Positions 40,350-42,591 of a DNA stretch of 42,591 bases are shown here, in pieces. The stretch is from positions 1-42,591 of IMG/VR virus record IMGVR_UViG_3300048996_000262; one strand, given 5' to 3'. A program made the translations under genes and the position numbers. Origin of the DNA: a virus. Position 1 is the stretch's first letter. Each line of letters opens with the position of its first letter. The notes beneath the pieces are model-generated. The model did not search any database. It had not been told where the DNA came from and was given only the letters and a program-made list of their open reading frames with translations.

Positions 40350-41051
40350 CTAACGGACAGCGGACTTGTAGGAAACCTTTGCACGGATGGCTTTGGTTAC
40401 AGCCTCCGAATAGTCGCATGGTGCTTTGACACCCGGCAGGAACCCTACATCAACGATTGCGCAATGCGCCTTGTACGAAGCTTCCTCAAGCCCCGCATCC
40501 CGACCCTTGGCGAAGGCTGCATCGCGGTTGTAAAGTGCGTGGTGGAGCGCATCCCGTTCCTTCCCAAGCTCAGCAACACGGGCGGTAAGTGTGGCGATAC
40601 GGGCTTCGGCGGCTAGGGCCACATCCTCAAAATACATCCCCGCCTGCTCTAAGCGTGCGACGTCCTCTCTCAGATGCTGCTCAAGATCGCTCGCCACCGG
40701 CTTGGGTGCAGGATGGGCGTAGAGGGGAACTTCGGTCCAGCCTGCCGCTTTGTCAGCATCGGTCAGGCACCCAGCGCCATACCGCCACAATTCAAGCTCC
40801 TTCTCCCCATTCGGACCTTTTTGGAGCAAGGCTTCCGGCTCGCTGGGTGTGCGCGGTGCAGAGAGTGCGCGGGTGTTCCATGCTTCCGCTGACCAATACG
40901 CGACCCCCTCCCGGCACTTGCCGCCAAGCATAGGTGCCTTAGAGCAAATCCACAAAGTTCCCGTTACAGTGGGCCTGTCGAACTCCTGCACGCTGCAAGG
41001 TTCGCCGCAAACACGGCACGGCAGCAGCTTCTCATTGGCATCAGACTGCAT
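40350..41051 (-). CDS. zinc-ribbon and coiled-coil phage protein, 233 aa
   Basis: Start [20 protein letters not shown] at ATG 41051, with GGAG six bases upstream. The N terminus is a Lar-like zinc ribbon ([23 protein letters not shown]). The middle has [20 protein letters not shown] and [11 protein letters not shown], a frequent phage motif. A long coiled coil follows ([20 protein letters not shown]). It is a mosaic of small-protein modules. Function unknown. Confidence 0.68.
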
Positions 41052-41250
41052 CGGCTTCTCCATCCCAAGGTTCAAGGGCGGCGACGGGGTAAATCTGCAC
41101 GTTGCCGGGTTCGTTGACACTAGCTACCGCATAGCCCTCGGGCGTCAGGTCGGTGGAGTACCAACCGCAAACAGGCCCGCGCCATTGTGAGCCTCGCTTC
41201 TTGCGGACCATCTGGCCTAGGTAAAAGGCGAAATCATTAGGGGTGTCCAT
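41041..41250 (-). CDS. dfrB-like: type II dihydrofolate reductase (DfrB/R67)-like
   Basis: 69 aa. From residue 9 on it matches plasmid R67 DHFR (as remembered) at roughly 34 of 55 positions: [26 protein letters not shown] and the active-site block [10 protein letters not shown]. The residues needed for catalysis are kept: Lys17 (R67 Lys32), Gln52 (Gln67), Ile53 (Ile68) and Tyr54 (Tyr69); R67 Ser65 is Asn50. R67 is an SH3-like homotetramer with one central pore that reduces dihydrofolate and is insensitive to trimethoprim. Here it sits in a phage operon near a MazG-like gene, so nucleotide or folate metabolism is plausible. Activity is inference. AAGGA is 8 bases upstream of the ATG. Confidence 0.85.
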
Positions 41251-41536
41251 CGGCTTGATCCTTCAGGGGGAGGTTGCGAATGGCTATGTCATTCGCACAT
41301 GAATGCAGATACGCAGAAACCGTCTCAAGACAGGTATCTCCTTCAACGAAGGCCTCTTCAGCGCGACTTCTCACAAGCGAGGCGTTCCACTCCCGTTCTT
41401 CCTCACGCGCCTGCTGGGCGTGACGGGCGGCTAGGGCATAGGCGCTATTAAATTTGCCTGCTGCCCAAAGAACGGCGATGTCTATAGCCAGCGCCTTGTC
41501 AGCCTCTGTTGGCTGTGGGGTGTCGGGGGAGGTCAT
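41237..41536 (-). CDS. hypothetical 99-aa protein
   Basis: ATG 41536 shares ATGA with the 34-aa membrane gene. [20 protein letters not shown], then a helical region with Ala/Glu/Arg and [20 protein letters not shown]. It overlaps the DfrB-like gene by 14 bases. Not recognised. Confidence 0.6.
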
Positions 41537-41637
41537 GCGAAAATTCCTATCAGGATAACCGCCACGACAAACGCCAGCAGCGGCAAGTATGAAACCTCGT
41601 TGCGGACATCGTTCTGAGAACCGGGATACTCGCTCAC
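41533..41637 (-). CDS. 34-aa single-TM protein
   Basis: A GTG at 41637 shares GTGA with the MazG-like stop, and the TGA shares ATGA with the next gene. After SEYPGSQNDVRNEVSY comes one membrane segment ([17 protein letters not shown]) that ends at the C terminus. The double coupling supports it as a real small membrane protein. Confidence 0.6.
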   Translation of the reverse strand: MSEYPGSQNDVRNEVSYLPLLAFVVAVILIGIFA

Positions 41638-42068
41638 TGTCCATCTTCCTTCTTGTGCGAGAGGGCGGCGGGTAGTGGTGAATGCTTTGGCTTAGCCGCT
41701 TGTTTGGCGCGGATAGCCTCGACCTTCGTCCAGATGCGGGTGAGTTCGGTTTCACCGGCTTTGTGCATGTCCATGCCGTTCGCGAGACAGAGGGCGGCCA
41801 GCGTGACCATCACGCCGCCGACTTCCTGCGGGGGTTCTCCTTCCGGCCTTCCATAGACGTAATCGACAAGCTGGTGTGCTTCGTGCGCGGTGCAACCACA
41901 TGACTGCACAAGCTCAAGCGCCTCTTCTAGAAAGCGATGATTGCGTTCCTCACGGTCCCCGGCAATCATCGCGCCGAAGCAGGCCATGAGCCAAGGCTGC
42001 ACACGATCTTGGAAAGCCACTTCCTCAATCAGTTCAGCAGGCAGGGGTGATGGGGTGGGTTCAGCCAC
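41634..42068 (-). CDS. MazG-like nucleotide pyrophosphohydrolase
   Basis: 144 aa from a GTG at 42068 (AAGGA upstream). All-alpha NTP pyrophosphatase-type protein: ERNHRFLEEALELVQ gives the metal ligands Glu48, Glu49 and Glu52, and QEVGGVMVTLAALCLANGMD gives the second half (Glu82, Asp100). Phage relatives degrade selected dNTPs or alarmones. It lies near the DfrB-like gene. The N and C termini carry short Ser-Pro-Leu-Pro motifs. Confidence 0.8.
   Translation of the reverse strand: MAEPTPSPLPAELIEEVAFQDRVQPWLMACFGAMIAGDREERNHRFLEEALELVQSCGCTAHEAHQLVDYVYGRPEGEPPQEVGGVMVTLAALCLANGMDMHKAGETELTRIWTKVEAIRAKQAAKPKHSPLPAALSHKKEDGQ
42034..42057 (-). repeat. 24-bp direct repeat, copy 1
   Basis: Identical by eye to 42335-42358. 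It codes TPSPLPAE near the N terminus of the MazG-like protein. Confidence 0.88.
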
Positions 42069-42591
42069 GGTCGATGTCCTTTGTTGACAGGGCGGGCTTC
42101 ATCACGAACTCGCGGTTTAGTATCTTCTCCATCCGCCTCGTGACATCAGAGATCGGGCGTGTGTCGGCCACAGGGGTCGGTAGGGAGGCAACGCGAACGT
42201 ATGCGACGGCCTCAAGGGGGCGCTCTCCATCAGGCTCCGGCTCGCCCGACCACTCAACGTCACCGCTTCCCATATCCAGCAGCCAAATTCTGTCCGGCGC
42301 GTAATTGCCGCAAAGACTTTCCGTGTTGGGCATCTCAGCAGGCAGGGGTGATGGGGTGTCGGTGGTCATGGCTGGTCCCTTGGATTTAGCTTCGGCTCTA
42401 GCGAGTAGGGCTGCGTCGATCTCAACGAACGCATCTGCTGCTGGCTTGCCGCACTCGTGCTGGCATTGCGCAGCAGTACGTAGGCAGGGAACCGCCTCGC
42501 CTCCGTGGCAAGCGTAGAAGCTCAGCGCATCTCGCGCCTTCCCCAGCAGCGCACGTTCGTTCTCTGCTTCAGACTTCGATGCTTGGGTCAT
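42061..42591 (-). CDS. hypothetical protein, 176 aa (possibly two modules)
   Basis: ATG 42591 is the last base triplet of the window. The first 73 residues have a Cys/His cluster (YACHGG, CLRTAAQCQHECGK). The second part, from MTTDTPSPLPAEMPN, carries PDRIWLLDMGSGDVEWSGEP and AVAYVRVASL, a common small phage module. An internal start at that Met (near 42369) could give a separate protein. It overlaps the MazG-like gene by 8 bases. Confidence 0.62.
   Translation of the reverse strand: MTQASKSEAENERALLGKARDALSFYACHGGEAVPCLRTAAQCQHECGKPAADAFVEIDAALLARAEAKSKGPAMTTDTPSPLPAEMPNTESLCGNYAPDRIWLLDMGSGDVEWSGEPEPDGERPLEAVAYVRVASLPTPVADTRPISDVTRRMEKILNREFVMKPALSTKDIDRG
42335..42358 (-). repeat. 24-bp direct repeat, copy 2
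   Basis: Second copy of 42034-42057, again coding TPSPLPAE, here at the possible internal start of the 42061-42591 gene. Confidence 0.88.

Follow-up and report, generated by a model that had tools for sequence, protein, structure and literature searches.

The R67/DfrB family lies behind the strongest trimethoprim-resistant dihydrofolate reductases. Recent papers explicitly leave open what these proteins originally did (PMC11662351, PMC9774602), and Burkholderiales have been named as the original hosts of dfrB (PMC11662351). It is already known that phages carry DfrB: four dfrB2-like viral contigs were reported from freshwater viromes (PMC7265639), eight dfrB genes were found in lytic phages (PMC12466917), and of two phage homologues put to the test, DfrB-H4 (Vibrio phage) conferred resistance to trimethoprim and DfrB-H3 (Pseudomonas phage) conferred none and showed no visible expression (PMC9835603). 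A third homologue, DfrB-H5, gave resistance with a kcat of 1.1 per s (PMC9835603). We identified DfrB-H4 as the protein of Vibrio phage 1.030.O (L012), where a methylase lies 2 kb away, DfrB-H3 as that of phage PS-1 (L013), where a methyltransferase adjoins, and DfrB-H5 as the Methylobacterium pseudosasicola homologue. Here we add a compact, stand-alone phage dfrB in which every catalytic residue is kept, from IMG/VR record IMGVR_UViG_3300048996_000262. The window is this whole record of 42,591 bp, and "window DfrB" denotes its gene at 41041-41250.

Window DfrB is an R67-type protein with the full active-site set

The gene and its signals are as follows.

41041-41250, minus strand: window DfrB, a stand-alone R67-type SH3-like protein of 69 aa (ORF, Pfam, PDB, AF2 and Foldseek)
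41259-41264, minus strand: Shine-Dalgarno-like GAAGGA, 8 nt ahead of the window DfrB ATG
41200-41202, minus strand: codon of Lys17, equivalent to R67 Lys32 (alignment)
41089-41100, minus strand: codons of V51-Q52-I53-Y54, equivalent to the R67 VQIY active-site motif (alignment)

An earlier note on this DNA had proposed an ORF at 41041-41250 with no strand given; the ORF exists and lies on the minus strand, with its ATG start at 41250 and TGA at 41041-41043, and the plus strand is broken by stops. Window DfrB matches Pfam PF06442 (DHFR_2) at 82.1 bits (E=2.6e-23; cut-off 25 bits) and the R67 chains in the PDB at E=1.5e-20. Consistent with the claim that the whole SH3-like core of R67 is kept, R67 residues 24-75 align to it without gaps, and the AF2 monomer (pLDDT 86.6) is an SH3-like barrel protomer for which all seven significant Foldseek matches in the PDB are R67, at an rmsd of 0.7-0.8 A. 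The alignment also confirmed that Lys17, Gln52, Ile53 and Tyr54 correspond to R67 Lys32, Gln67, Ile68 and Tyr69; Lys32 is the residue to which the anionic tails of DHF and NADPH bind in R67 (PMC9835603). Window DfrB falls below the curated cut-off of the NCBIfam model trim_DfrB (NF000331; 89.4 vs 137 bits), in part because most of the disordered N-terminus is missing, and thus stands outside the named resistance alleles. It is a genuine member of the R67/DfrB family with the full active-site set.

We compared 123 distinct DfrB cores of viral, genomic and plasmid origin. Lys32 (R67 numbering) is kept in 120 of the 121 cores having a letter at that position, and Tyr46 and Thr51 are present in all; the conservation of VQIYP was partly imposed by the search patterns, whereas that of Lys32 was not. 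Viral DfrB homologues are under purifying selection, with a median dN/dS of 0.07 in a codon comparison of viral cores (521 non-independent pairs). Taken with the conservation of Lys32, Tyr46 and Thr51, this value suggests that in phages selection acts on the pore and not on the fold alone. At R67 position 62 the commonest residue is Glu (79 of 123 cores; His in 43), which is found in the active homologues DfrB-H4 and DfrB-H5 and in window DfrB (E47).

The gene lies in an overlapping row of phage early genes

As the earlier note had stated, the phage is temperate: a tyrosine integrase is encoded at 192-1268, and an S24 repressor, ERF, YqaJ exonuclease, TerL and portal were also found. The record is a temperate HK97-like, siphophage-like genome. 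At the DNA level it is similar to Mesorhizobium, Agrobacterium and Paracoccus phages, making an alphaproteobacterial host likely on sequence grounds, and its head genes resemble the HK97 group. If the record were closed, its ends (1-3 and 42589-42591) would join as the TGA and ATG of two minus-strand genes. This junction suggests that the genome is circular or circularly permuted, with dfrB in the early operon of the integrase and distal to it. Reading downward from 42591, the order is an unknown ORF, followed by:

41634-42068, minus strand: gene called "MazG-like" in the earlier note, a conserved all-helical phage/plasmid domain of 144 aa (phrog_8593, phrog_14118)
41533-41637, minus strand: ORF of 34 aa with a GTG start and one hydrophobic segment, membrane-like; its TGA overlaps the following ATG
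41237-41536, minus strand: ORF of 99 aa upstream of window DfrB, overlapping the dfrB start by 14 nt
41041-41250, minus strand: dfrB
40350-41063, minus strand: ORF of 237 aa downstream, overlapping the dfrB stop by 23 nt, with a Cys-rich start (CRVCG...) and then a W-rich PLYAHP stretch

Every gene in this row overlaps its successor, and those on both sides of window DfrB do so, bearing out the tight packing described earlier. Because of these successive overlaps the row looks like a co-translated early operon and not a cassette. No attC site directly follows the window DfrB stop, which falls within the overlapping downstream ORF. By eye the 237-aa protein resembles Lar/Ea22; it has no Pfam or PHROG match, and we do not claim that identity.

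The description of dfrB as lying beside a MazG-like gene did not hold, since the 34-aa and 99-aa ORFs intervene and the MazG identity is unsupported. The 41634-42068 protein matches phrog_8593, a family with no assigned function, at E=5e-71 and the MazG-like phrog_715 only marginally (E=0.044), and it has no match in Pfam or NCBIfam. Its family has an invariant EExxE (residues 48-52) and a second motif, E82-V/A-G-G85, in 10/10 homologues; MazG has EExxE followed by ExxD, whereas this family has ExxG, without the Asp. We did not accept a MazG identity given the poor all-helical AF2 model (pLDDT 49), a PDB profile search that returned no solved relative, and an hhalign probability of 0.1% (shallow alignments) against the DfrB-fused pyrophosphatase domain described below. 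The domain (about 115 aa; L098-L106) is 77-90% identical across phages, where it occurs both stand-alone and within long mosaic proteins, and it is also found in Burkholderia, Cupriavidus and Pseudomonas plasmids; no Pfam family was matched. In other phages the domain turns up repeatedly as one module of a mosaic protein, and DfrB is present in none of these nine loci.

A predicted tetrameric reductase that would act through host metabolism

The family membership, monomer fold, active-site residues and operon setting of window DfrB are direct observations. On this basis we favor, at a probability of roughly 0.55, the reading that it is a stand-alone phage accessory gene in the distal early operon, whose product forms an R67-type tetramer reducing dihydrofolate or a dihydropterin and so tops up reduced folate or pterin. 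The 69-aa SH3-like protomers are predicted to form an R67-type D2 tetramer, with a central pore lined by K17, Y31, T36 and V51-Q52-I53-Y54 from four subunits. This pore would bind NADPH together with dihydrofolate (or a related dihydropterin), hydride transfer would be slow and insensitive to trimethoprim, and reduced folate or pterin would be replenished during infection independently of host FolA. The tetramer and its activity are most likely, by analogy with characterised homologues that have the same residues; the folate/pterin top-up in vivo is a role that we only infer. No ThyA, ThyX, FolA, FolE, QueD or QueC was found in the phage record. With no thymidylate synthase, FolA, FolE or Que gene of its own, any benefit to this phage must act via host metabolism.

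The PF06442 match, the fit of the AF2 model to R67, the kept pore residues, the Glu62 common to active DfrB-H4 and DfrB-H5, and purifying selection all support a dihydrofolate reductase. Further support comes from other phages, in which dfrB lies directly behind folE or queD or is fused to a pyrophosphatase domain. Against this reading stand the lone E58A and S65N substitutions, the absence of ThyA, ThyX, FolA, FolE, QueD and QueC, the unproven link to MazG, and the finding that reductase activity can be adventitious in the R67-like fold (PMC9835603).

DfrB is a widespread swappable module in phages

Phage DfrB homologues are present in 26 annotated phage records, many of them already labelled R67 or dihydrofolate reductase, and at least 274 of 2.9 million IMG/VR contigs encode DfrB relatives, a lower bound because the scan used two patterns only. 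A scan of genome contigs with window DfrB as a single protein gave no matches; with an alignment of closer sequences it gave 52 loci. Among 67 distinct phage and viral cores, 33 are stand-alone and 34 are fused to other sequence (22 with extra sequence on the N side, 9 on the C side and 3 on both). In two phage loci (L019:4180-4788 and L023:5452-6060), DfrB and a phage pyrophosphatase domain (phrog_5658, E=3.6e-58) form a single 203-aa protein; another fusion is with DUF551, and several more are long, mosaic early proteins containing Q/A/P linkers. The DfrB domain is thus a widespread swappable phage module. In Ochrobactrum phage ZX86 (L009:4656-5186), the N-terminal part of the DfrB protein is hydrophobic, transmembrane-like and coiled-coil-like.

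This modularity is also what would be expected if DfrB were a tetramerising module, non-catalytic or only adventitiously catalytic, that is shuffled among mosaic early proteins, its pore binding an anionic nucleotide- or pterin-like ligand or merely serving tetramerisation, with dihydrofolate reduction as a by-product. Half of the viral cores are fused to unrelated sequence, the partners being as diverse as linker-rich mosaics, DUF551, a pyrophosphatase domain and a transmembrane N-terminus, and the literature argues for adventitious activity (PMC9835603). Co-occurrence points the same way: ThyA is present in only 6 of 49 DfrB-bearing records, and ThyX and FolA in none. A dTMP role argued from co-occurrence with thymidylate synthase or FolA is unsupported by these counts. 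However, Lys32 and VQIY are near-invariant, beyond the needs of a mere oligomerisation module, and dfrB lies directly behind folE or queD in some phages. We regard such a shuffled module as rather unlikely.

Some phage dfrB genes adjoin folE and queD

Viral DfrB genes have 91 immediate neighbours on the same strand; the commonest known families among these are QueD-like PTPS (9) and FolE (5), and a QueE-like gene also occurs. FolE is found in 15/49 DfrB-bearing records, QueD in 17/49 and QueC in 1/49. Conversely, DfrB is present in 12/78 FolE loci and 2/80 QueD loci, a rate far above that of at least 274 per 2.9 million contigs. Most folE/queD phages lack DfrB, so the association is partial, and reverse enrichment was rejected. 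At several loci a few bases separate the stop of folE or queD from the start of dfrB behind it, and at one (L044) the order is folE, a nucleotidyltransferase-like gene, queD, dfrB, a phosphoribosyltransferase and a radical SAM gene. Two freshwater phage operons (L044:3283-8594 and L028:5318-6186) carry folE, queD, radical SAM, phosphoribosyltransferase and dfrB, with QueC not detected, and could encode an unusual 7-deazaguanine or pterin pathway.

From this placement we hypothesize a native DfrB role in pterin/folate or 7-deazaguanine metabolism. A broader proposal, that the native activity of phage DfrBs is pterin reduction within phage-encoded FolE-QueD-QueE pathways (for 7-deazaguanine DNA modification or pterin supply), with the resistance enzyme as their descendant and the partners of window DfrB supplied by the host, we hold to be improbable. 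Slightly less probable still is that, in place of folate, the native substrate is a dihydropterin from the FolE-QueD-QueE route to 7-deazaguanine or pterins, window DfrB keeping that role with host enzymes. The neighbour counts and the two-way co-occurrence favor a dihydropterin substrate; yet the folE/queD-adjoining cases are confined to essentially one DfrB clade in related phages of one freshwater group, and the slot is variable, since close relatives with the same flanks have dfrB absent or replaced by other sequence (L281, L327 and L293 vs L255). QueC is also nearly absent, and the window phage has no FolE, QueD or QueC. The literature search found no paper linking DfrB with folE/queD genes, and neither this placement nor the modularity of DfrB appeared in the literature searched. 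We see the link to folE/queD as the most useful lead, turning the purpose of DfrB into a concrete substrate question.

The earlier proposal of a role in phage nucleotide metabolism is unsupported as stated, the MazG neighbour being unconfirmed and the phage lacking ThyA, ThyX, FolA and FolE. Both this proposal and that of a phage reservoir, considered below, are weaker than was claimed.

Window DfrB lies outside the clade of clinical alleles

In a tree of 122 cores (53 columns), few forks were resolved. One supported fork (SH-aLRT 96) brings together plasmid DfrB1-4, 6, 9 and 10, three viral sequences and the copies of 16 genomes, most of which are Burkholderiales; the chromosomes in this clinical clade are mostly of Comamonadaceae, Sphaerotilaceae and Oxalobacteraceae. 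Window DfrB falls outside it, on a long terminal branch (0.85). That branch, together with E58A and S65N at otherwise near-invariant positions (window DfrB alone among the 123 cores has Ala and Asn there), might indicate that DfrB is decaying or catalytically dead in this phage. We consider this very unlikely, as the frame is open, with a Shine-Dalgarno sequence and overlaps on both sides, all known pore residues are intact, and the AF2 model is good. That window DfrB is a recently captured clinical resistance cassette is scarcely credible: it has a family in common with the integron DfrBs, but it is at most 66.7% identical to plasmid copies among the matches listed, sits outside their clade, and is overlapped on both sides by phage genes, its stop buried in the next gene and not in an attC site.

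The grouping of clinical alleles with Burkholderiales chromosomes agrees with the origin proposed previously (PMC11662351), and the view in the earlier note that the natural source of dfrB is poorly understood is out of date. Phages thus do harbour a reservoir of this family, and their carriage of DfrB, seen here in at least 274 viral contigs, was already known, but the window phage is not the source of the clinical alleles. Two dfrB genes lie in Pseudomonas resistance arrays beside aadA1 (L117:1965-2168 and L116:2001-2174), the latter with intI1 nearby. The former, plasmid-borne in P. aeruginosa, is outside the main clinical clade, and these genes are possibly a second mobilised lineage. Behind the Burkholderiales copies, a GCCTAAC/GCCTGAC-like core is found at the stop in 19/23 and a GTTRRRY partner in 8/23, a mixed attC picture. 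At L124:1487-1800 and L127:712-960, a GCCTAAC core within the dfrB stop is followed by an attC-like site. These two sites suggest that dfrB may take a cassette form in its original hosts, the Burkholderiales; most other copies have no clear partner.

Comparison with R67 and other described DfrB proteins

With PF06442 and PDB entries 1VIE and 2RK1 as references for R67 DHFR (DfrB1), R67 positions equal window DfrB positions plus 15, and 36 of 60 residues are identical over R67 19-78 (about 62% over the core, which has no gaps). Both proteins have K32, W38, W45, Y46, T51, S59, G64, V66, Q67, I68 and Y69 (R67 numbering); W38, a dimer-dimer interface residue of R67, is kept as W23. They differ in length (78 aa in R67; 69 aa, with little N-terminus, in window DfrB), in the substitutions H62 to E, E58 to A and S65 to N, and in setting, R67 being an integron cassette and window DfrB part of a phage operon. 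The chromosomal dfrB genes of Burkholderiales (PMC11662351) have the same family and active site but form a separate clade that groups with the clinical alleles. Among phage proteins, the dfrB2-like ORFs of freshwater viromes (PMC7265639), like window DfrB, represent a phage-borne DfrB domain. PHROG 31682, to which no function is assigned, is matched by window DfrB and by 32/32 multi-domain proteins scanned, which also match the Pfam R67 DHFR family. DfrB-H3 and DfrB-H4 are multi-domain proteins (PMC9835603), whereas window DfrB is a stand-alone gene that has Glu62 and the active-site motif in common with DfrB-H4.
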